Source: Oscillospiraceae bacterium
GTDB taxonomy: Bacteria; Bacillota; Clostridia; Oscillospirales; CAG-272
Assembly (NCBI GenBank): GCA_015063395.1
Contig: SVUF01000009.1
Location: 1 to 32,308, forward strand
Reading direction: 5' to 3'
Length of the DNA: 32,308 nucleotides
The notes under the pieces were generated by a model. The model had not been told where the DNA came from. It searched no databases and worked only from the letters and a program-made list of their open reading frames with translations. Made by a program: the position numbers and the translations under genes. Below are positions 7,704 through 26,122 of the stretch, piece after piece; within the stretch, counting starts at the first letter, position 1; every line of letters begins with the position of its first letter.

Positions 7704-7949
7704 CAAAAAGCAGCCCTCGGCTGCAGGAGAAAGCAGCACCCTACACCGGTGCGCCTTTTGAATTTATTTTACTCAAAAACAGAGTAGTTCCCTTTAAAGC
7801 AAAAAAGCCGCTGTTTTTTAGGCGGCTTTGGTTTTGCCTTGCATTGTTTTTTCCATTTATTCAATGTAAAGCGGCAAATACAACGAAATATTGACGGATA
7901 TCGCCGTAATTTTAAAATAAAGGTTGTCAAAATTGACGGAGTCCTTTAC
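7704..7949. other. Intergenic spacer with hairpins
   Basis: This is the first part of a 348-bp gap without a gene. It has a compact hairpin GCAGCC/GGCTGC (7710-7715 with 7719-7724) right after the dehydroquinase-like stop. A second weak stem, GCACC/GGTGC (7736-7752), is followed by TTTT and might end the yqeG transcript. No small ORF with an SD was found. Confidence 0.5.
7804..7829. terminator. Probable terminator hairpin
   Basis: The stem AAAGCCGC/GCGGCTTT (7804-7811 with 7822-7829) has a T-rich loop. The better T-run (six) follows on the minus strand. On the plus strand only GGTTTT follows, so plus-strand efficiency is doubtful. Confidence 0.5.
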
Positions 7950-7978
7950 TTGACAAAAAAACGACTGTGTGATATAAT
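7950..7978 (+). promoter_or_regulatory. Perfect-consensus sigma-A promoter of the phosphotransferase/YidC-TagF operon
   Basis: -35 TTGACA (7950-7955), exactly 17 nt, -10 TATAAT (7973-7978). The leader is about 66 nt. It contains an 8-bp A/T hairpin AAAAATGA/TCATTTTT (7988-8010) followed by T residues, which could act as a weak attenuator. Confidence 0.85.
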
Positions 7979-8051: not shown

Positions 8052-9848
8052 ATGGATAATAATATGGACAAAAAAAGCCGACGCAATGATCAGCGGAAAT
8101 CTCCAAAGATCAAGCTTATTGAGCTGTGGCAGGACAAAAGAAGCTTCAAGAAAAGATTGCTGATTTCAGTCTTCCCCATTTTCTTCTTCTATTTTACTTT
8201 TGTATTTTTCGGACCCTTTGAGATCGCAATGTCAAATGCGGAGTCGATAATTTTCAGCCCTGCAAGAGTGGCAAGCACCATGGGAATTCTTACAATAGTG
8301 CTTTTCAGTGCAACCACCTTTCTTGTTTCGCTTCTCCGAGGAAAGATCTTTAACTTTCTCTCAACCGCCTTTTTTGCCGCAGGCGTTGCAGGATATCTCC
8401 AGGGAAATGTTTTCAACGGAGATCTTATGGAAGCCCTTACAGGCGATGCCATTGCTTGGCAGACAATGGCAGGCAAAATGGTCGGTAACCTTATCGTATG
8501 GGCTCTCATCATTATTGCCGCATATATGCTTTTGTACTTCAGCAGAAAATATTGGCGCATCACACTGAAATATGTATCGATTTTCCTTGTTCTTATACAG
8601 GTCATTGGAATCATCAGCATATTTATAATGCCTAAAACAGGAGAAACCTACGAAAGCGTCACAATCGACTCCGACGTTTATTTTTCCAACGACGACCAAT
8701 ATCTCTTCTCATCAGGTCACAATATTCTTGTGGTTGTTCTTGACAGATTTGACTATGATTATGTTGAAGATGTGCTTGAAAAGGACCCCGAATTCTTCAA
8801 AAAGCTCGACGGTTTTACTTCATACACCAACGCCACAACAGAATTTGCAAGAACCGAGCCCGGTATAAACAACATTCTCACTGCTCTTGGCGGAAAGGAT
8901 GCCTACAAGCTTTCCAAGGCAGAATATTTCAACACCTCATGGACAAAGCTTACAGGTACAAGCTCCATTGAAAAGCTTTCAAAGGCAGGCTACAATGTGG
9001 GCATCTACGGAGATATCTCCACATGGTTTGGAGATGACGGCTCACAGCTTCAGTATATAAACAATATTTCTTATGAGCAGGAAAAGATCAATTATTCAGC
9101 ACTTATCGAAAATATGCTCAAGATCTCCGCATACAGATATACTCCCATTGCCCTGAAGCCATTCTATTGGTGCTACTCCGATGATGTAAGCTCGGGAGTT
9201 TACACAGAAAGCGAAAGATATGTAATTGATGAAGCTCAATACTATGAGGATCTTGCAGAGGAGTTTTTTGCAGATTCCGACACAAAGCAGTTCAAGCTTC
9301 TTCATTTCAACGGCCCCCATGCTCCCTATACACTTGATGCAAACGGCAAGAGAGTTCCTCTCGGAACGGATGTTGTTGAGCAGACAATGGGTTCATTCCA
9401 CATACTTTACGAGCTTTTCGCAAAGATGAAGGAAGCAGAAATTTATGACAACACGGAAATCTTCATTCTCGGTGACCACGGATCAGCCGTATCCGACACC
9501 AAGCCCCTTCAGAAAGCTACAAGGATCGGTCTTTTCCACAAGGAAGCAACTGCCATTGGCACTGAGCTTGAATATTCAGACATGCCCGTATCACAGATCA
9601 ACGTACTGCCCACAATTCTCAGAGCCGCAGGCGTTGAAAATTACAAGGATTACGGCACTCCTCTTGACGAAGTCGATGAGGACAATGTAAGATATTATTA
9701 TAAGAGCGTTGTAAAAAGAGTTACCGAGGGCGGTAACAATCACGAGGCAGAGGTCCACGTTTATAAGATCACAGGGGACGCCTCCAACTTCAAAAATTGG
9801 GAAAAGATCGATGTTTACGAAATTCCCGACAATTGTTGGTTCTATTAA
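8052..9848 (+). CDS. LtaS-like membrane phosphotransferase (alkaline phosphatase/sulfatase superfamily)
   Basis: This 598-aa protein has the architecture of lipoteichoic acid synthase. There are five predicted TM segments (about 38-60, 73-95, 99-118, 142-163, 172-193) and then an extracellular metal-dependent domain. Visible motifs are VVVLDRFD (metal ligand Asp231), ARTEPG (Thr268, aligning with the Thr nucleophile of LtaS), HFNGPHAPY (418-426) and GDHG (474-477, metal site). A Thr nucleophile and the lack of a CxPxR sulfatase motif point to phosphoglycerol or similar group transfer rather than sulfate hydrolysis. LtaS is typically about 650 aa. The ATG at 8052 has only a weak SD (AAGG), with a second Met five codons in. 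It is the first gene of a four-gene operon ending in a CDP-glycerol-type transferase, which supports a role in a glycerophosphate polymer. Substrate and product are inferred. Confidence 0.82.
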   Translation: MDNNMDKKSRRNDQRKSPKIKLIELWQDKRSFKKRLLISVFPIFFFYFTFVFFGPFEIAMSNAESIIFSPARVASTMGILTIVLFSATTFLVSLLRGKIFNFLSTAFFAAGVAGYLQGNVFNGDLMEALTGDAIAWQTMAGKMVGNLIVWALIIIAAYMLLYFSRKYWRITLKYVSIFLVLIQVIGIISIFIMPKTGETYESVTIDSDVYFSNDDQYLFSSGHNILVVVLDRFDYDYVEDVLEKDPEFFKKLDGFTSYTNATTEFARTEPGINNILTALGGKDAYKLSKAEYFNTSWTKLTGTSSIEKLSKAGYNVGIYGDISTWFGDDGSQLQYINNISYEQEKINYSALIENMLKISAYRYTPIALKPFYWCYSDDVSSGVYTESERYVIDEAQYYEDLAEEFFADSDTKQFKLLHFNGPHAPYTLDANGKRVPLGTDVVEQTMGSFHILYELFAKMKEAEIYDNTEIFILGDHGSAVSDTKPLQKATRIGLFHKEATAIGTELEYSDMPVSQINVLPTILRAAGVENYKDYGTPLDEVDEDNVRYYYKSVVKRVTEGGNNHEAEVHVYKITGDASNFKNWEKIDVYEIPDNCWFY

Positions 9849-9934: not shown

Positions 9935-10216
9935 ATGAAAAAGAAGCTTGTTGCAGTTTTCGCAGTATTTTTTGTACTTGGAATGTTGATGTTCTCAACA
10001 GTATCAAGCGCATACCTTGATCCGTCGACAGCCACATTTATTGTACAGATCGTTGCAGGTGTTGCAGTTGCTTGCGGAGCGGCATTTACCTTTTATTTCA
10101 GAAAGATAAAGAGAAAGCTCAAGGGAAACAATGACGAAAACGCAGATAACGTACAGTCTCTTGACAACTCCAAGGACGGCTTTGACGATTCAGAATTTGA
10201 CGAAGATGACGAATAA
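9935..10216 (+). CDS. Small membrane protein with YLDPST motif
   Basis: This 93-aa protein of unknown function has three parts. First is a signal-peptide-like segment (residues 1-26: MKKK, a hydrophobic core, then SSA). Second is YLDPSTATFIVQ, running into a second hydrophobic helix (about 33-55) with a basic stop FRKIKRKLK. Third is a highly acidic C-terminal tail. Small proteins with a (Y/F)(I/L)DP(G/S)T motif before a TM helix are, from memory, often encoded beside sulfatase- or phosphotransferase-like genes, so a partner role is plausible. Cleavage after SSA would leave YLDPST as the new N-terminus. The SD AAAGGAG lies eight bases before the ATG. Its last 11 bases overlap the signal peptidase gene. 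Confidence 0.75.
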   Translation: MKKKLVAVFAVFFVLGMLMFSTVSSAYLDPSTATFIVQIVAGVAVACGAAFTFYFRKIKRKLKGNNDENADNVQSLDNSKDGFDDSEFDEDDE

Positions 10217-10730
10217 GTCTGAAACGAGATCAAAAATAAAACAAAATAAAGAAACGCTGATAACATTTGCCATATTGATAGCGGCGCTTGTTGCAGCGTT
10301 TCTTGTTTCCGGCTTTGTTGTTTCTCTTGGATTTATACACGGTCCCTCCATGGAAAACGCCCTGTATGACGGGGACATCGTTGTAATTTGGAAGCTTTTT
10401 GACAGTATACAAGCAGGTGATATAGTTGTTTGCAGACTGCCCGAGCTGACTGCGGGAACAATTGTAAAAAGAGTGGCAGCTGCTCCCGGAGATCATGTCC
10501 TCATCACAAAAACAGGGGAGCTTTATGTCAATTCGGAATATATCACCGTGTTTGGCAAGGAAACCTATACCCCAACAGAGCTTCAGCTTCAGGACGGGGA
10601 ATATTTTCTTCTCGGTGATAATCTCGAATTCTCCACCGATTCAAGAGATCAAAAATTCGGAATTATAAAGGACAAGTGCATCGAGGGAAAGGTCATCTAC
10701 AGGCTTTTTCCGAAAATGACTAAATATTAA
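10206..10730 (+). CDS. Type I signal peptidase (S26 family)
   Basis: This membrane serine protease removes signal peptides. The protein is 174 aa from the ATG at 10206. The frame is open further upstream to 10131, but that part lies inside the preceding gene and is not conserved-looking. A TM segment occupies about residues 17-43. The catalytic serine is Ser48 in GPSMENAL and the general-base lysine is Lys88 in GTIVKRVAAAPGD. Box E is LLGDNLEFSTDSRDQKFG (136-152). All catalytic parts are intact. The start overlaps the previous gene by 11 bp with no clear SD, implying translational coupling. Its place inside a polymer operon suggests a dedicated substrate, for example the 93-aa protein just upstream; this is inference. 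Confidence 0.92.
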   Translation: MTNKSETRSKIKQNKETLITFAILIAALVAAFLVSGFVVSLGFIHGPSMENALYDGDIVVIWKLFDSIQAGDIVVCRLPELTAGTIVKRVAAAPGDHVLITKTGELYVNSEYITVFGKETYTPTELQLQDGEYFLLGDNLEFSTDSRDQKFGIIKDKCIEGKVIYRLFPKMTKY

Positions 10731-10750: not shown

Positions 10751-12865
10751 ATGGATATCATAGGCGAAATACTCGGAACTCCACTGGGCTATGTGTTGAA
10801 GCTTTGCTATGACATATTCAAGGATTACGGATTGGCAATTATCATATTTACTCTTTTGACAAAGGTGATACTTTTCCCTGTATCTCTTCTTGTTCAGAAA
10901 AACTCGGTAAAAATGATCAAAATGAAGCCCCAGCTCGACCAGCTAAAATACCAGTACGTTGATGACAAGGACGCGCTTCTTGACGCGCAAAGCGAGCTTT
11001 ATAAAAAGGAAAAATACAGCCCCTTTGCAGGAATGAGCCCTCTTTTTATACAGCTTCCCCTTATCTTCGGTCTTATTGATGTTGTTTACAGACCCTTAAA
11101 GCACATTCTGCACATTCCCGCAGAGGTTATAAACGCATTTGTCGAAAAAGCAAAGGAGCTTTCGGGACTTGCAGATCTTGGTTCCGCCCCTGAGCTTAAG
11201 GTAATGCAGCTTGTGTCTGACGGTAAAAACTACGATGCCTTTATGTCTCTTGAGCAAGGCGCACTTTCAGGATATGATGTTGGCGGATTTATTGAAAAAA
11301 TGCAGTCCATCAACATGAGCTTCCTGGGTATTGACCTTTCAAGCGTACCCACCCTCGCCTTAAATCTTTTGTTCCTCATACCTCTGTTTGCAGGAATTTC
11401 CGCGCTTTTGATGTGTATTGTACAGAACAAGATCAATGTACTCCAGATCGAGCAGGGATTTTTCGGTCGCTGGGGAATGACCATATTCATGATCGCATTC
11501 TCAACATATTTCGCGTTCCTTGTTCCCGGCGGTGTTGGTCTTTATTGGATCTTCGGAAACCTGTTTTCAATTCCTGTAATGTATTTGGTCAATATGATCT
11601 ACAATCCCAACAAATACATTGACTACAAGACCCTGAATAATCTTAAGGAAAAAGCAAAGGAAGAAGCAAAGATCAACCGGGAAAACAAAGCCCTTTCAAA
11701 AAAATATTACAAAGAGATCTGCCGCGGAGACAACCTTCAGAACATGGATCTTGTGTTCTATTCCGAAGGCAGCGGATTTTATAAGTATTTTGAAAACATC
11801 ATTGAATCAATACTGAAAAACTCCGACATTACCATAACTTACATTACAAATGACCCTAAGGACGCAATTTTCAAGAAGAACAATCCCCGCATCAAGCCCT
11901 ATTATATCAGCGGTAATCAGCTTATTACACTGATGATGAAGCTTGAATGTAAGATCGTTGTTATGACCACCCCGGACCTTGAAAAATATCATATCAAGCG
12001 TTCTAAAATGAAGAAGAACATTGAATACATCTATGTGGACCACGGCTGTACCTCTCTGAACCTTACCTACAGAACGGGCGCCCTTGACTATTTTGACACA
12101 GTATTTGTTGTCAGCCGCAGTCAAGGACTTGAAATCAGAGCCATGGAAAACCTGAGAAACACCCACAAAAAGAGAATTGTAAAATGCGGCTATGGCCTTA
12201 TGGACAATATGCTTGAGGCTTACAGCAAGAAGGAAAAGAAGGAAAACGAGAAGCCCGTTATCCTCATAGCTCCCTCGTGGCAGTATGACAATATCCTCGA
12301 CAGCTGTATCGATGACATCGTAAACGATCTTGTTTGCGACAAATACAAGGTAATAATCAGACCTCACCCCCAGTATATCAAGCGTTTCCCTGTAAGAATG
12401 GAGGAAATGTTTGAAAGATACAAGGATAAGCTTTCCGAGGACTTCATCATTCAGACGGATTTCTCATCAACCGACACGGTATATAATTCCGATATAATGA
12501 TCACCGACTGGTCGGGAATCGCCTTTGAATACAGCTTTACAACCAACAGACCCACACTTTTTGTAAACACACAAATGAAGGTTGTAAACAAGGACTACAA
12601 AAAGATCTCCATTGAACCCTTCGATATTACAGGCAGAAATAAGGTTGGACGTTCAATCGAAAAATCAGAGTGCTGCAACATTTCAAAAACCGTAGAAGAC
12701 TTCCTTGTTCATAAGGACGACTACGCAGAACAGATCAGTAATCTTCGAAACGAGTATTTCTACAATCTCGGATCAAGCGGAGAGGCAGGAGCTGACTATA
12801 TTATCCGCAGAATTAAAGGTCTTCCTCTCGGTAACACAAACAAAGATACAAACAAAGATAACTAA
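10751..12865 (+). CDS. Fusion of YidC/Oxa1 insertase domain and CDP-glycerol glycerophosphotransferase (TagB/TagF) domain
   Basis: This is a 704-aa two-domain protein. Residues 1-290 are a complete YidC/Oxa1 domain. They include DYGLAIIIFTLLTKVILFP with Lys38 at the groove-charge position, a cytoplasmic K-rich hairpin (50-90), MSPLFIQLPLIFGLIDVVY (95-113) and three further TM helices ending VGLYWIFGNLFSIPVMYLVN. A charged linker (295-320) leads to a glycerophosphotransferase domain (about 330-690). It carries VDHGCTSLN (429-437), IIRPHPQY (535-542) and MITDWSGIAFEYSF (583-596), the three marks of TagB/TagF enzymes that move glycerol phosphate from CDP-glycerol. The frame is continuous and the linker hydrophilic, so I see a true fusion and not an error. 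SD CGGAG. It lies 20 bp after the signal peptidase gene and is closed by a terminator. Confidence 0.9.
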   Translation: MDIIGEILGTPLGYVLKLCYDIFKDYGLAIIIFTLLTKVILFPVSLLVQKNSVKMIKMKPQLDQLKYQYVDDKDALLDAQSELYKKEKYSPFAGMSPLFIQLPLIFGLIDVVYRPLKHILHIPAEVINAFVEKAKELSGLADLGSAPELKVMQLVSDGKNYDAFMSLEQGALSGYDVGGFIEKMQSINMSFLGIDLSSVPTLALNLLFLIPLFAGISALLMCIVQNKINVLQIEQGFFGRWGMTIFMIAFSTYFAFLVPGGVGLYWIFGNLFSIPVMYLVNMIYNPNKYIDYKTLNNLKEKAKEEAKINRENKALSKKYYKEICRGDNLQNMDLVFYSEGSGFYKYFENIIESILKNSDITITYITNDPKDAIFKKNNPRIKPYYISGNQLITLMMKLECKIVVMTTPDLEKYHIKRSKMKKNIEYIYVDHGCTSLNLTYRTGALDYFDTVFVVSRSQGLEIRAMENLRNTHKKRIVKCGYGLMDNMLEAYSKKEKKENEKPVILIAPSWQYDNILDSCIDDIVNDLVCDKYKVIIRPHPQYIKRFPVRMEEMFERYKDKLSEDFIIQTDFSSTDTVYNSDIMITDWSGIAFEYSFTTNRPTLFVNTQMKVVNKDYKKISIEPFDITGRNKVGRSIEKSECCNISKTVEDFLVHKDDYAEQISNLRNEYFYNLGSSGEAGADYIIRRIKGLPLGNTNKDTNKDN

Positions 12866-13057: not shown

Positions 13058-13615
13058 ATGGTAGTAGCCGGCGATTTCAAAAACGGTGTTACATTTGAAA
13101 TGGAGGGTAACGTTCTTCAGGTAATCGAATTCCAGCACGTTAAGCCCGGAAAGGGTGCAGCTTTTGTTCGTACAAAGCTCAGAAACGTAATTACAGGAGC
13201 AGTTATCGAAAAGACATTCAGCCCTACAGATAAGTTCGAAAATGCTTATGTTGAAAGAAAAGAAATGCAGTATTCATATGATGACGGAGCTCTTTATCAC
13301 TTCCTTGACACAGAAACATGGGACGAAACTCTTGTTTCTCACGACACTGTAGGTGATGACTTCAGATTCGTTAAGGAAGAAATGATGTGCAAGATCGTTT
13401 CCTACAAGGGTAATGTTTTTGCAGTTGAACCCCCAACATTCGTTGAACTTGCTGTTACTGATACTGACCCCGGTTTTGCAGGCAATACAGCAACCAACAC
13501 TCTCAAACCCGCTACTGTTGAAACAGGAGCAGAGGTTAAGGTTCCCCTCTTCATTGAGGTTGGCGAAGTTATTAAGATCGATACAAGAAGCGGCGAATAT
13601 CTCTCCCGTGCATAA
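13058..13615 (+). CDS. efp: Elongation factor P
   Basis: This translation factor binds between the P and E sites of the ribosome and rescues stalling at polyproline. At 185 aa it is the standard three-domain length. Domain I carries the modifiable loop VKPGKGAAF with Lys32 at its tip. Middle and C-terminal OB domains follow, ending in the family signature [18 protein letters not shown]. The ATG at 13058 has ACGGAGG upstream. The SGNH surface protein at 21816 has long Thr-Pro runs and would be one client in this window. Its neighbour downstream is the CD1247-type gene, the order known from Clostridia. Confidence 0.98.
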
Positions 13616-13714: not shown

Positions 13715-14260
13715 ATGACAATTTCCGAAAAAGTTGCATACCTTAAGGGTATGATGGAAGGCATGGATCTCGACACAGAAAAGGGCAACGGCAAGCTTCT
13801 TGCAAAGATCGTTGAAATTCTTGATGACATGGCTCTTGAAATTGAGGATCTTTCCGATGAAGCAGTTCAGCTCCGCGACTACTGCGACGAGCTTGATTCA
13901 GATCTTGGAGACGTTGAAGAATATCTTCTTGAAGAGGCTGAAAGTGACGATTGCTCATGCGAAGGCTGTGAAGGCTGCGACGGTTACGACGCAGATGACG
14001 AAGACTTCGATTGGGATGACGAAGACGACGAAGACTATGATGAGGACGATTTTGACGAAGATGAAGAAGATGACGACATCATAGAAGCTATGTGTCCCGA
14101 ATGCGGTGAGGAGATCTTTTTTGATCTTGACATTGATCCCGCAGACATCATCTGTCCCAGTTGCGGAAAGCACGTTTCATTTGTTTGCGACGGTGATTGC
14201 GAAGGCTGCAGCGGTTGCGACAGCGAATGTGACGAGGATCTTGACGAGGACGACGAATAA
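13715..14260 (+). CDS. CD1247 N-terminal domain protein with zinc ribbon and acidic, Cys-rich tail
   Basis: This 181-aa protein resembles the CD1247 family encoded next to efp in Clostridia; its function is unknown. Residues 1-72 form the helical conserved N-terminal domain (MTISEKVAYLKGMMEGM...). A highly acidic low-complexity region (about 76-122) contains a CSCEGCEGC cluster (80-88). A zinc ribbon follows with CPEC (127-130) and CPSC (147-150). The end has a second Cys cluster, CDGDCEGCSGCDSEC (158-172), before an all-acidic tail. The extra Cys clusters sharing the CEGC.GCD pattern look like an internal duplication and could bind more metal. SD AAAAGGAG before the ATG at 13715. Confidence 0.85.
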   Translation: MTISEKVAYLKGMMEGMDLDTEKGNGKLLAKIVEILDDMALEIEDLSDEAVQLRDYCDELDSDLGDVEEYLLEEAESDDCSCEGCEGCDGYDADDEDFDWDDEDDEDYDEDDFDEDEEDDDIIEAMCPECGEEIFFDLDIDPADIICPSCGKHVSFVCDGDCEGCSGCDSECDEDLDEDDE

Positions 14261-18280: not shown

Positions 18281-19510
18281 ATGAAAAAAGCTCTTGTTCT
18301 TGCCGCCGGAGTTCCGCAAGCAGTTCTTGCCGAAAAGCTTCGCAACAGAGGATATTATATAATTATGGCAGATTATACCGAAAATCCTGTAGGTAAAGAC
18401 GCTGCTGATAAATTTTACAGAATAAGTACTCTTGATGTCGAGGCAATTCGTAACCTTGCAATTGAAGAAAATGTTGATCTCATCATGACTGTATGCACTG
18501 ATCAAGCAATGCTGACTGTTTCTTTGCTATCAGAGGAACTTGGTCTGCCTTGTTATATCAGCCATAAAACAGGTCTTGAAATGACAAATAAAAAATATAT
18601 GAAGAATATCTTCCGTGAAAATGGTATTCCAAGCGCAAAATATACCATTGTAACTGATGACAAATTGTCCGAAATTAAGGGATTTTCATTTCCTATGGTA
18701 GTAAAGCCCGTTGATTGCAATTCATCAAAGGGAGTATGTAAAGTTACAAATCAAGAGGATCTTAAGGCAGCGATCCGACAGGCAATTGAATTTTCAAGGA
18801 CAAACAATGCAATCGTCGAAGAGTTTTTTGAAGGCGAAGAATTCTCCTGTGATTTTTTTGTGGACGGAACTGAAGCAAAAATGCTGGGTATATCACTTAG
18901 CGAAAAGATAAAGAGCGATTCAAAATTTGTAATATACCGCTCCATCTATCCTGTACCCTATGATTCCCCCGAAATACGTGAAAAAATTACAAAAACCGTA
19001 CAAAAAATTGTTGATGCATACGGTCTTTCAAACTGTCCCATGCTTGTTCAGTTGCTTTACCGCGACGGTGAGATCTCGGTTATCGAATTTTCTGCAAGAA
19101 CAGGAGGCGCACTGAAATATAAGCTAATCGAGCTAACAAGCGGAGTTGACATAATTGAAGCAACAATTGATGTAACACTGAATAAAAAAGCCGATGTTAA
19201 GCCAATTCCATCAAAAAAACATATCAGAAATGAATTTATTTATCTAAAAGACGGAATTTTCGATCACCTTGAGGGATTTGAAGAGCTTAAACAAGAGGGA
19301 ATTATTGATAATTATTACCTTTTCCATACAAAAGGCTGCGAATTCAACGGTGCAAACAGCAGCGGTGACAGAATTGGCGGATATACTCTTGTTGCGGACA
19401 GTATTGATGAAATGAAAAAGCTTCATAATATTGCAATTTCTCGAATGAAGGTTATTTCAAATTGTGGGGAAGATATGTTCAGACGTGATATTTTAAAGGA
19501 GGAATTCTAA
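18281..19510 (+). CDS. ATP-grasp domain ligase
   Basis: This 409-aa enzyme activates a carboxylate with ATP and joins it to an amine or similar nucleophile. Its substrate is unknown. Residues 1-95 form the Rossmann-like pre-ATP-grasp domain. The ATP-grasp fold follows, with FPMVVKPVDCNSSKGV (137-152), IVEEFFEGEEFS (178-189, hinge/ATP contacts) and VIEFSARTGGALKY (267-280, metal and phosphate ligands Glu269 and Arg273). It resembles the PurK/CarB/biotin-carboxylase-like group used for many amino-acid or sugar ligations. The ATG follows AAAGGTG. Its stop overlaps the start of the aminotransferase gene (TAATG), so the two are co-translated and probably act in one pathway, perhaps making an amino sugar bearing an acyl or aminoacyl group. 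Confidence 0.88.
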   Translation: MKKALVLAAGVPQAVLAEKLRNRGYYIIMADYTENPVGKDAADKFYRISTLDVEAIRNLAIEENVDLIMTVCTDQAMLTVSLLSEELGLPCYISHKTGLEMTNKKYMKNIFRENGIPSAKYTIVTDDKLSEIKGFSFPMVVKPVDCNSSKGVCKVTNQEDLKAAIRQAIEFSRTNNAIVEEFFEGEEFSCDFFVDGTEAKMLGISLSEKIKSDSKFVIYRSIYPVPYDSPEIREKITKTVQKIVDAYGLSNCPMLVQLLYRDGEISVIEFSARTGGALKYKLIELTSGVDIIEATIDVTLNKKADVKPIPSKKHIRNEFIYLKDGIFDHLEGFEELKQEGIIDNYYLFHTKGCEFNGANSSGDRIGGYTLVADSIDEMKKLHNIAISRMKVISNCGEDMFRRDILKEEF

Positions 19511-20598
19511 TGAAAATTAACGTAACAAGATCATCAATGCCTCCTTTTGAGGATTATATCGAAGAAATCAGAGATATATGGGACTCAAGATATCTCACAA
19601 ACAATGGTCCAAAGCACCAAAAATTAGAGGAAAAGCTTGAAGAATATTTTGGGGTTGACCATGTTGTTCTTTTTACAAACGGCCATCTCGCCCTTGAATT
19701 TATGATCGAGGGTCTTGACCTTAAGGGTGAAGTAATTACAACACCTTTTACCTTCGCTTCAACCACAAACTCCCTTTTTCGCAAGGGAATTACACCGGTT
19801 TTCTGTGATATAAACCCTATAGATTATACAATTGATGTTGATAAAATTGAAGCTCTTATCACTGAAAAAACAACGGCGATCATGCCCGTTCATGTTTACG
19901 GAAAGCTCTGTGACACCGAAAAGATCCAAGAAATTGCAGACAAATACAATCTCCGTGTAATTTATGACGCTGCACATGCTTTTGGTGTTTTTAAGAAAGG
20001 CGTAAGCTCTGCCGCATTTGGAGATGCCTCAATGTTCAGTTTTCATGCGACAAAGGTCTTCAACACAATCGAAGGCGGCTGTGTTGCCACAAACAACAGC
20101 GATCTTGCAAAAAAGCTGAATACACTGAAAAATTTTGGTCTTGACGCCAATGCAAACTGTGTATATTCAGGCGGAAACGGTAAAATGAGTGAATTTCAAG
20201 CTGCTATGGGGCTTTGCAATCTCAAATATCTTGATAGAGAGATCGCCCTTCGCAGGGAAGCAGCTGAGGGATATGTTTCAAGATTAAATGGCATAAAAGG
20301 CATTAAATTACCCCCTGTTCAAAGTGAAGTTTTAGACAATTATTCATACTTCCCCGTAATTTTTGACGGCTATAAATACAGTCGCGATGAGGTTGCGCAA
20401 CGCCTTTCCATAAATGACATCGGCGCTCGAAAATATTTTTATCCCACAGTAAATTCCTTTACATGTTATGCACACCTTCAACAACAAAACACAACACCAA
20501 TAAGCACAAGTATTGCCGAAAAGGTGTTGACTCTTCCCCTTTACGCAGGATTATCAAGAGAAGAAACAGATATGATCTGTGACATCATTCTCTCTTAA
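19510..20598 (+). CDS. DegT/DnrJ/EryC1/StrS family PLP aminotransferase
   Basis: This 362-aa protein belongs to a fold-type I family that usually transaminates nucleotide-linked keto-sugars. The PLP lysine is Lys182 in MFSFHATKVFNTIEGG, and Asp153 in IYDAAHAFGV contacts the pyridine nitrogen. The N-terminal SRYLTNNGPKHQKLEEKLEE is the usual start of the family, and the length is normal. No sugar dehydratase, epimerase or nucleotidyltransferase is adjacent, so the keto substrate must be made elsewhere. It is translated from an ATG that overlaps the preceding stop and closed by a terminator. The amino acceptor could also be a non-sugar, as family members are diverse. Confidence 0.92.
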   Translation: MKINVTRSSMPPFEDYIEEIRDIWDSRYLTNNGPKHQKLEEKLEEYFGVDHVVLFTNGHLALEFMIEGLDLKGEVITTPFTFASTTNSLFRKGITPVFCDINPIDYTIDVDKIEALITEKTTAIMPVHVYGKLCDTEKIQEIADKYNLRVIYDAAHAFGVFKKGVSSAAFGDASMFSFHATKVFNTIEGGCVATNNSDLAKKLNTLKNFGLDANANCVYSGGNGKMSEFQAAMGLCNLKYLDREIALRREAAEGYVSRLNGIKGIKLPPVQSEVLDNYSYFPVIFDGYKYSRDEVAQRLSINDIGARKYFYPTVNSFTCYAHLQQQNTTPISTSIAEKVLTLPLYAGLSREETDMICDIILS

Positions 20599-24008: not shown

Positions 24009-25889
24009 TTAATTCTTCTTGTCTTCATCGTCCATTTCAGACTTTTCAATAAGACCTGTTTTTGCGTTTCCTGTCTTATTTTTTCCTGACTTGCTGTTTT
24101 TTTCATCGATCTTTTCCCTTTCGCTTTTGGGAAGATCATAGTATGACACCTTATCCTCGAGAACGGCATATTCGTCGTCATCGTCATCATACTTTGTCAC
24201 TTTCTTCTTTGATGACTGTATTATTTCCTTTTCTTGCTTCTTTTTTTCCTTTGGCTGCTTGCCCTTATATTCTCTTTCAGCAGCCTTATAATCCTCTTCT
24301 GTGTACACAGGGAAAGGATACATCTTTTTCAGTATAAACTGCTGAATAATTCCGAGAAGGCTCTGGAATATCCAATAGATACCAAGCATTGCGGGAACTG
24401 AGAAGCAGATAAATGTTGAAAGAGCAGGCATTGTAATATCCATGATCTTCATTGAAGCCATGGCATCGGGAGCCCCTTCCATTTTAGGAGGCTGATATGA
24501 CATTTTTCTTGTGATCTTCATACTGAAATAGTATGAAAGGAATACAAGAACGGGAACTAAAAGAAGAAGGTTGAATGTCTTTATATCGGGAGTATCCGCC
24601 ATATTAAAGCCATTAAAAAGTACAAAGTTTGGCATTGCAGATGCACTTTCTATATGACTTGTGAAATCATATGAGAAATTCAGATGCATGAATTCAACAA
24701 CTTCTTCAAAATGGTCGGAAATAAGCCCAATTACGTTGATATCATTGAGAGTTGTTGTAATTCCCTTGATATCTGTGAAATACTGTCTGATTATTGCCAT
24801 TGCATCAAGAGAAATTCCCGACATGAATGTAAGGGGCTCTCTGATCACACCGTAAAGGCAAATGAGGATCAGCATCTGGAGTATCATGGAAAGACAGCCG
24901 CCGCCCATCATACTGATGCCTTCCTTTTCCTGAGCCTGCTGGATCTCAGTCTGGCACTTCATCTGTGTTTCTCTGTCATTTCTTCCTTTATACTTGTTCA
25001 TAATGGCTCTTTGTGTAGGCGCGAACTTCGCCTGCTTCACCATGTTCTTCTGCTGCTTGATTCCTGTGGGGAAAAGCACCACCTTTATAACAATTGCAAA
25101 AAGGAATATGGCAAGAAGATAGTTTGACGTAATATCATAGAAAAACTTCATGACGATTCCCATGGGGCCCTTGACAAAATCAAGAATTCCATTGTAAATG
25201 CCGTCATTGATCTTTCCCTCTTCACTGAGTTCAACATCAGCTCTCTCTGCAAAGAAAACCCTCCATGAGTCCTTCATTTCAGTGGTGTATTCCACCTCCA
25301 TGATCTCTGTTGAGCAAACCTGACGTCTTGTTGTTGTTTCTGTTTTTTCGTAAAATTCAAGGATTATTTCGTATTTATTACCGGGAACAAGCTCTCTCAT
25401 TCCTCCGTCATAGGTATCAAGCACGAAATATATATATTCCTTGCCGCTGGCTTCATCAGTTTTTTTGGTTGTAGAGATGATGTCACTGCTTCCTGCGATC
25501 CAACCGTCTTTCTCAGCTTGATTATCTTTCTTTTCACGGTACAAAAATTCTACTACCGCAACAGTATCAAATGATGAATACTTTTCGTAAAGCTCTGCAA
25601 TTCTATCTTCTTCAACTCTTACATAAAAACCGTATTCAGCTTTTTTTCCTTCACCGTATTTACCAAAATACAATCCCGTCTTGGTCTGGTTATATGGCTC
25701 AGATCCAACCTTTTCGCCGCTGAGGCTTTCATATTTGATCTGTGTCTTGATTTCCTGATTTTCCGTTGTGACGGGTGCTTCTGTTGATTCTTCACCGTAT
25801 ACAGTAAAAATTGAAGATACGGCCATTATAATGACCATAATTACTGTTAAATATCCGAGAAGCTTTCTTTCTCTGTTTTTTCCGTTCAT
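24009..25889 (-). CDS. yidC: Membrane protein insertase YidC (canonical locus), with large extracytoplasmic domain
   Basis: This protein inserts and folds membrane proteins, alone or with SecYEG. The start is the ATG at 25889 (MNGKNRERKLLG, 626 aa) with GAGGT upstream. The longer frame to 25940 has no SD. It is far longer than Bacillus SpoIIIJ (about 260 aa). After the first TM (about 10-30) comes a soluble region of some 190 residues. The Oxa1 core follows with LLAIFLFAIVIKVVLFP (groove-charge Lys), GCLSMILQMLILICLYGVIREP, an inserted region and AMLGIYWIFQSLLGIIQQF. A long Lys/Asp-rich cytoplasmic tail (about 520-626) may bind ribosomes or RNA. A second YidC domain occurs in the fusion protein at 10751. 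Confidence 0.95.
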   Translation of the reverse strand: MNGKNRERKLLGYLTVIMVIIMAVSSIFTVYGEESTEAPVTTENQEIKTQIKYESLSGEKVGSEPYNQTKTGLYFGKYGEGKKAEYGFYVRVEEDRIAELYEKYSSFDTVAVVEFLYREKKDNQAEKDGWIAGSSDIISTTKKTDEASGKEYIYFVLDTYDGGMRELVPGNKYEIILEFYEKTETTTRRQVCSTEIMEVEYTTEMKDSWRVFFAERADVELSEEGKINDGIYNGILDFVKGPMGIVMKFFYDITSNYLLAIFLFAIVIKVVLFPTGIKQQKNMVKQAKFAPTQRAIMNKYKGRNDRETQMKCQTEIQQAQEKEGISMMGGGCLSMILQMLILICLYGVIREPLTFMSGISLDAMAIIRQYFTDIKGITTTLNDINVIGLISDHFEEVVEFMHLNFSYDFTSHIESASAMPNFVLFNGFNMADTPDIKTFNLLLLVPVLVFLSYYFSMKITRKMSYQPPKMEGAPDAMASMKIMDITMPALSTFICFSVPAMLGIYWIFQSLLGIIQQFILKKMYPFPVYTEEDYKAAEREYKGKQPKEKKKQEKEIIQSSKKKVTKYDDDDDEYAVLEDKVSYYDLPKSEREKIDEKNSKSGKNKTGNAKTGLIEKSEMDDEDKKN

Positions 25890-26122
25890 TATTACCTCTT
25901 TTTTGGTTACACCGAAAATAAAAAAGGTCAACGGAGCCAATTGTTTCGATTATATAATTATATATATTTTTTCTCCGCTTCCTCGCGGCTTTGTTTTCGG
26001 CTCATTCTTTTTCAAAACCGCTTTTCTCTCAACGAACGCAATTTTTGTTTTTTATGCCGTAATTCATTATCCACTAAAACCTGCTTTAAGGTATAGTTTA
26101 AATTATAAATTACAGTAAATAA

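Follow-up and report, generated by a model that had tools for sequence, protein, structure and literature searches.

We identified a gene that joins a YidC-type membrane domain to a TagF-like transferase domain in the stretch of DNA analysed here (the window; 32,308 nucleotides of an Oscillospiraceae contig), and found the same join in about 30 loci of Clostridia. The fusion is genuine and conserved. We propose that it would be a membrane-anchored, CMP-dependent head-group transferase, in which the groove of the YidC half passes on the product and an LtaS-like enzyme of the same cluster acts outside, a reading to which we give a little less than even odds (about 0.45). The proposal builds on domains, motifs, gene co-occurrence and re-fusions that were all observed directly.

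A conserved fusion of YidC with a TagF-like domain

The gene and its parts have the following positions in the window.

10751-12865, + strand: YidC-TagF-like fusion, 704 aa (ORF, Pfam, relatives)
10751-11599, + strand: YidC half, residues 1-283 (PF02096; AF2; Foldseek)
10862-10864, + strand: codon of Lys38, within TM1 of the YidC half
11600-11749, + strand: linker, residues 284-333, mainly one long helix (AF2 helix 292-324)
11750-12820, + strand: TagF-like GT-B half, residues 334-690 (PF04464; Foldseek; invariant residues)
12041-12043, + strand: codon of H431, invariant
12359-12370, + strand: codons of RPHP, invariant
12503-12514, + strand: codons of TDWS, invariant

The initial annotation had described one unbroken frame of 704 codons with YidC and TagF-type domains, and both the open reading frame and the Pfam matches agree with it. 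The frame is uninterrupted from its ATG start, and the product matches PF02096 (YidC) at residues 26-281 (114 bits, cut-off 35) and PF04464 (Glyphos_transf) at residues 334-608 (47.2 bits, cut-off 22.1). The DHG, RPHP and TDWSG motifs that had been pointed out are present at residues 430-432, 537-540 and 585-589, and H431, R537-P540 and T585-S588 are invariant among 24 aligned relatives. The AF2 model of the fusion, which took an alignment of 16 relatives as input, has a mean pLDDT of 82.9 and a pTM of 0.69, with the long linker helix at residues 292-324. Its best PDB match by Foldseek is Staphylococcus epidermidis TagF with CDP-glycerol (3l7k, E 3e-10). Sequence searches of the PDB with a profile of the whole fusion retrieved YidC only; TagF was matched through the domain profile or the fold.

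No stop or frameshift occurs at the junction, where the initial annotation had suggested looking for one, and both halves lie in one frame across the relatives. The same join recurs in about 30 loci of genomes that were assembled independently, which rules out a frameshift, an assembly error, a chimera, a readthrough artefact or chance. Our literature search on YidC with PF04464-type or with teichoic acid and phosphocholine enzymes found no report of a YidC-PF04464 fusion.

We detected the full-length fusion in 11 of the 59 genomes of a sample of relatives, the window's own included: 10 of the 36 genomes of the same family and one genome of a second family of the same order. These relatives are 39-69% identical. 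A scan of named genomes added 16 loci in MAGs, some of which may repeat genomes of the 59-genome sample; they are labelled Clostridia, Oscillospiraceae, Ruminococcaceae or similar, and one carries the label Marvinbryantia formatexigens. At the level of the class, the fusion is encoded by four additional genomes that belong to three further families, which brings the total to about 30 Clostridia loci in at least five families, so the occurrence in other genomes that had been asked about is confirmed. A phylum-wide sample of 398 genomes added no fusion; its single new find was a stand-alone TagF-like relative in G807. In the tree, all TagF-fused YidC halves fall into a single clade (100/100) that excludes the canonical YidCs encoded by these genomes. 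Families are mixed within this clade, which suggests transfer among gut Clostridia.

The gene cluster around the fusion

The fusion is the last gene of an apparent operon of four, in the order LtaS-like, YIDPS, signal peptidase I, YidC-TagF.

7804-7829: terminator-like stem, just upstream of the promoter-like site
7950-7978, + strand: promoter-like TTGACA-17-TATAAT, 12/12 with an extended -10 (consensus scan), preceding the cluster
8052-9848, + strand: LtaS-like transferase of the alkaline-phosphatase/sulfatase superfamily, 598 aa (PF00884, 51 bits)
9935-10216, + strand: YIDPS small membrane protein, 93 aa, unannotated (read from the sequence)
10206-10730, + strand: signal peptidase I, 174 aa (PF10502, 94 bits; TIGR02227, 104.5 bits, cut-off 47)

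The ATG of the signal peptidase gene (10206) overlaps the end of the YIDPS gene (stop 10214-10216), and the fusion starts 20 bases after the signal peptidase gene. Of the 30 fusion loci, 29 have the LtaS-like gene next to the fusion. Five membrane helices are predicted in its product, whose catalytic domain is extracytoplasmic (AF2 pLDDT 84.6) and whose best sequence match in the PDB is eLtaS (2w5r/2w5q). The segment arTkps aligns with QGKTSDS of Staphylococcus aureus LtaS, with Thr268 at the position of the LtaS nucleophile. This profile alignment and the invariance of Thr268, Asp475 and His476 indicate a putative threonine-nucleophile transferase, not a Cys/Ser sulfatase. The five-helix and extracytoplasmic layout and the position of the threonine are shared with LtaS, PptA and EptA of the alkaline-phosphatase superfamily, a family whose members take phospholipid head groups as donors, but identity between the 598-aa protein and the solved members is low throughout (11-18%).

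The YIDPS gene is below the 100-aa threshold of the list of open reading frames and is therefore absent from it. In the window, its product consists of a signal peptide ending in A-Y-L-D-P-S, one TM helix, a basic patch and an acidic tail. Proteins of this type share a Y(I/L)DPS motif, mostly right behind a signal-peptide-like segment; after it come a TM helix and a basic patch, and in many of them an acidic tail. The gene stands beside the fusion or is fused in 29 of 30 loci (28 by pattern, plus L036), and only L042 lacks it. No named family of Pfam or NCBIfam matched it above cut-off. This small unannotated protein would be assigned to a putative decoration pathway.

The activated donor

The C-terminal half had initially been annotated as a CDP-glycerol glycerophosphotransferase. 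It resembles TagF, TagB and TarL (PF04464; 3l7k) in its GT-B fold, the DHG histidine, the RPHP and TD(W)S motifs, and the predicted use of a CDP-activated donor at the membrane. It differs from them in having YidC instead of amphipathic helices, in that no supply of CDP-glycerol was found, and in its linkage to LicC-like and phosphonate genes. An enzyme that primes or polymerises poly(glycerol phosphate) on a YidC platform would agree with the PF04464 match above cut-off, the TagF fold, the adjoining LtaS-like gene and the TagD-like domains that a few fusion genomes have at scores under the cut-off. However, the genome of the window, which is 91% complete, gave no glycerol-3-phosphate cytidylyltransferase TagD with the TIGR01518 profile, and none of 15 fusion genomes has one above the curated cut-off, nine of them being without any match; the controls of this search, B. 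subtilis and others, were positive. LicC-like genes, not TagD, are strongly associated with the fusion, and genes for choline kinase, PepM and PhnW neighbour related loci. The only PF04464 domain of this genome is the fusion itself. We regard this alternative as very improbable: CDP-glycerol is disfavoured as the default donor by the lack of TagD and the linkage to LicC, and the annotated activity is not supported. The TagD-like domains below cut-off are in G036 and G256 (109 and 117 bits), and no close LicC-like gene was found in G036, G192, G383 and G289; other CDP-alcohols may therefore serve as donors for some members.

In 16 of the 30 loci, a gene no more than 9 kb from the fusion encodes a LicC-like cytidylyltransferase, mostly with a winged helix at its N-terminus. 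It is often accompanied by an ABC importer; the components of the importer have as their best matches, at scores under the NCBIfam equivalog cut-offs, PhnS2, PhnT2 and PhnU2 of a putative import system for 2-aminoethylphosphonate (AEP). In the same family, all ten fusion genomes encode the LicC-like enzyme, against one (two with a weak match) of 25 genomes without the fusion (Fisher p 6e-8 to 4e-7, with the relatedness of the genomes uncorrected). The genome of the window encodes it beside a PhnS2-type importer on contig C16, apart from the contig of the fusion cluster. This enzyme is 63% identical to a fusion-linked gene of another locus (L022), and its best PDB match is pneumococcal LicC (1jyk, 1.5e-24), with PntC weaker; by its sequence, it qualifies as a putative LicC-type cytidylyltransferase of the Lic-1 pathway. 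The join of a winged-helix HTH segment to the LicC-like enzyme, next to the PhnS2/T2/U2-like importer (L089:7832-12224, on G000:C16), also suggests self-regulation by the substrate.

LicD is the classical transferase for CMP-activated donors of the lic type. LicD (PF04991) was not found in the genome of the window and is absent from nine of the ten family fusion genomes; the fusion would therefore be the obvious user of the activated group. Choline kinase LicA matched there only at 19.8 bits (cut-off 29), and nine of the ten family fusion genomes have no choline kinase above cut-off; matches above it occur in G009, G010, G012, G256 and G807. PEP mutase (PepM) was not found in the window's genome and is present in the fusion genomes G034, G256, G289 and G383, and also in G807. 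In a genome that is 91% complete, failing to find TagD, LicD, PepM or choline kinase does not prove that they are lacking. The combination of no choline kinase above cut-off and no PEP mutase fits the import of a ready phosphorylated or phosphonylated compound such as AEP. We do not claim choline as a certain substrate, given that this genome has no choline kinase above cut-off, and we discard de novo synthesis of phosphonates in it, given that no PEP mutase was found.

Two genomes of other families place phosphonate genes directly next to parts of the system. In G289, the fusion has as neighbours PEP mutase, phosphonopyruvate decarboxylase and a nucleotidyltransferase, and the stand-alone TagF-like domain of G807 is next to PEP mutase, phosphonopyruvate decarboxylase and the AEP transaminase PhnW, all these PEP mutase, decarboxylase and PhnW models being above their curated cut-offs. 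Overall, the linkage would suggest choline- or aminophosphonate-type groups over glycerol phosphate. We also observed in G807 (L066:4693-6330) a PEP mutase fused to a LicC/PntC-like nucleotidyltransferase, beside the phosphonopyruvate decarboxylase and PhnW.

A second system and re-fusions of the parts

Four genomes (G009, G010, G012 and G022) encode a second type of locus, where a TagF-like protein with an N-terminal YIDPGTGS TM segment is followed by a YidC-LtaS-like protein.

L062 (4147-8159), L063 (4046-12355), L064 (4358-8460) and L065 (6779-10816): second-system loci with YidC-LtaS-like, YIDP-TagF-like and LicC-like genes

The YidC-LtaS-like protein, of about 920 aa, has an N-terminal YidC domain (77-78 bits in the two proteins tested, cut-off 35) and a C-terminal sulfatase/LtaS-like domain, whose sulfatase score is below the cut-off in L064. 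A LicC-like gene is nearby in all four loci, and those of G009, G010 and G012 (L062, L063 and L065) also carry genes for a choline kinase and an EamA-type transporter. Judged by gene content, a locus with the latter two is a putative lic locus with the TagF-like protein in the place of LicD. Matches to YidC-LtaS were found in 8 of 291 genomes of the class, several with multiple copies. A third re-arrangement is found in G192 (L054:5780-8050), where a YIDPS segment is fused to the LtaS-like protein. Hence, at least three ways of joining the four parts (YidC, TagF-like, LtaS-like and YIDP) are found in these loci. TagF-fused and LtaS-fused YidCs form two separate clades in the tree, each with a support of 100/100, the branch of the latter being very long. 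Independent recruitment of YidC to the two fusions is likely from this topology.

The role of the YidC half

The YidC half consists of TM1, the C1 hairpin, TM2, an extracytoplasmic insert (residues 116-204) and TM3-TM5, and it matches TIGR03592 with 100.6 bits (cut-off 84.3). The structure prediction that had been recommended recovers a YidC fold: the modelled half (pLDDT around 80) matches YidC2 of Bacillus halodurans in Foldseek (3wo7, E 4.6e-6, TM 0.66 on the target). In the alignment, Lys38 is the counterpart of the arginine in TM1 of that protein, and the position is Lys or Arg in all 24 aligned relatives. The half thus shares with YidC/Oxa1 proteins (B. halodurans YidC2 3wo7, E. coli YidC) the five-TM core, the C1 hairpin and the basic residue in TM1, but it is a second, divergent copy, with a transferase in place of the C-terminal tail. 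The housekeeping copy is also in the window.

24009-25940, - strand: canonical YidC of the same genome (PF02096, 117.6 bits; separate clade)

This canonical yidC sits between rnpA and jag, near dnaA and outside the fusion system. Its presence in the window, and in the other fusion genomes checked, rules out the fusion as a replacement of the housekeeping YidC.

YidC/Oxa1 proteins are protein insertases, which require the TM1 basic residue and the C1 hairpin. The initial annotation had considered an insertase for a co-encoded membrane protein, and the cluster does encode one, YIDPS, together with a signal peptidase, which leaves that option standing. It is the main rival of our reading: the YidC half would be dedicated to inserting YIDPS, and perhaps also the LtaS-like protein, so as to localise the assembly of the complex, with the TagF-like half as an independent, tethered enzyme. 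In its favour, the cluster includes a signal peptidase, small N-out single-TM proteins such as YIDPS are a typical class of YidC substrates, YIDPS is present in nearly all the loci, and the residues required by insertases are conserved in the fusion. Yet a canonical YidC is already encoded in the same window, and the C-terminal tail with which other YidCs bind ribosomes is replaced here by an enzyme. The re-fusions also argue against it: the second system has YIDP in the TagF-like protein and YidC on the LtaS-like protein, which a relation of insertase to substrate would not predict. We consider this explanation unlikely, if the most serious of the rivals.

The YidC half could also be a plain membrane anchor without a role in transport, like the amphipathic helices that dock TagB and TagF on the membrane. 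TagF-type enzymes act at the membrane face, where a five-TM domain would localise the enzyme. But an anchor would not account for TM1, C1, TM2, TM3, C2, TM4 and TM5 being conserved (0.71-0.82) like the catalytic halves (0.68-0.72), while the extracytoplasmic insert (0.50), the N-terminal segment (0.57) and the linker (0.56) are looser. Nor would it account for the Lys or Arg retained in TM1, or for YidC, and no other anchor, having joined the pathway in two separate clades and with two different enzymes. We find a plain anchor improbable.

The remaining reading of the YidC half involves lipids. We know of no dedicated biological use for lipid scrambling by YidC/Oxa1 proteins. Such scrambling by E. 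coli YidC and further Oxa1 proteins has been observed both in vitro and in simulations (PMC10491306), and a 2025 review mentions a possible scramblase role (PMC7618853). We tentatively suggest that YidC was recruited twice, in the fusions to TagF-like and LtaS-like proteins, as a dedicated groove or scramblase for a lipid-linked phospho- or phosphono-aminoalcohol, i.e., as an "insertase" that would move a lipid intermediate and not a protein. Such a role would rest on the general activity of insertases, and sequence cannot tell a scramblase from an insertase or an anchor.

Proposed mechanism and comparison with known systems

In the head-group transferase that we favour, the LicC-like enzyme, encoded elsewhere in the genome beside the PhnS2-type importer, would make a CMP-activated phospho- or phosphono-aminoalcohol, e.g., CMP-2-aminoethylphosphonate, CDP-choline or a close relative. 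The cytosolic TagF-like half would then take the aminoalcohol, with its phosphoryl or phosphonyl group, off CMP and attach it to a lipid or lipid-linked glycan embedded in the membrane. The TagF fold and the catalytic residues are observed for this step; we infer its substrate, its acceptor, its direction and the role of the groove. The YidC half, connected by the helical linker, might act as a local scramblase, letting the product enter its hydrophilic groove, which is open to lipid, and leading it on to the outer leaflet. Finally, by homology with LtaS, EptA and PptA, the LtaS-like enzyme might shift the head group from the lipid to a surface acceptor through its conserved threonine. Some surface phosphocholine is thought to derive from phosphatidylcholine, with PptA as the transferase (PMC10434233). 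YIDPS would be a regular small subunit of the complex, here probably matured by the co-encoded signal peptidase. The earlier suggestion of YidC as a platform or groove coupled to a cytosolic transferase fits the predicted topology. Hence, in the initial interpretation the idea of coupling stands and the CDP-glycerol activity is unsupported.

Both halves are known domains, and the overall pathway resembles the lic/pnt decoration systems. As in Lic-1 (LicABCD) and Pnt (PepM, Ppd, PhnW, PntC; PMC6697681), LicC/PntC-like activation of phosphocholine or AEP would serve surface decoration, and lic- and pnt-type genes adjoin relatives of the fusion system. In contrast to these systems, the transferase is TagF-like and membrane-fused, not LicD, and there are additional LtaS-like, YIDPS and YidC parts. 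Another TagF-like protein paired with a LicC-like one is known from the type A flagellin glycan of Clostridium difficile (CD0244/CD0242), for which transfer of phosphothreonine from CDP-threonine, not CDP-glycerol, has been proposed (PMC10714395). That pair differs from the fusion in its flagellin target, and the excerpts of that report describe no YidC, LtaS-like or YIDPS component.

If the groove moves lipid intermediates, this would be a categorically new job for YidC. The fusion of YidC to a transferase, repeated in another arrangement with the partner enzyme from this pathway, would offer a direct genetic and biochemical test of lipid handling. The results would also suggest a decoration pathway of the lic/pnt type in uncultured gut Clostridia, where current annotation would say "CDP-glycerol glycerophosphotransferase".

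Two other regions of the window deserve mention. Positions 13715-14260 encode a very acidic protein of 181 aa with Cys-rich, zinc-finger-like motifs, downstream of an elongation factor P-like gene (13058-13615). Positions 18281-20598 carry an overlapping gene pair for an ATP-grasp ligase and a DegT/DnrJ aminotransferase, which may belong to a pathway that ligates sugars or amino acids.
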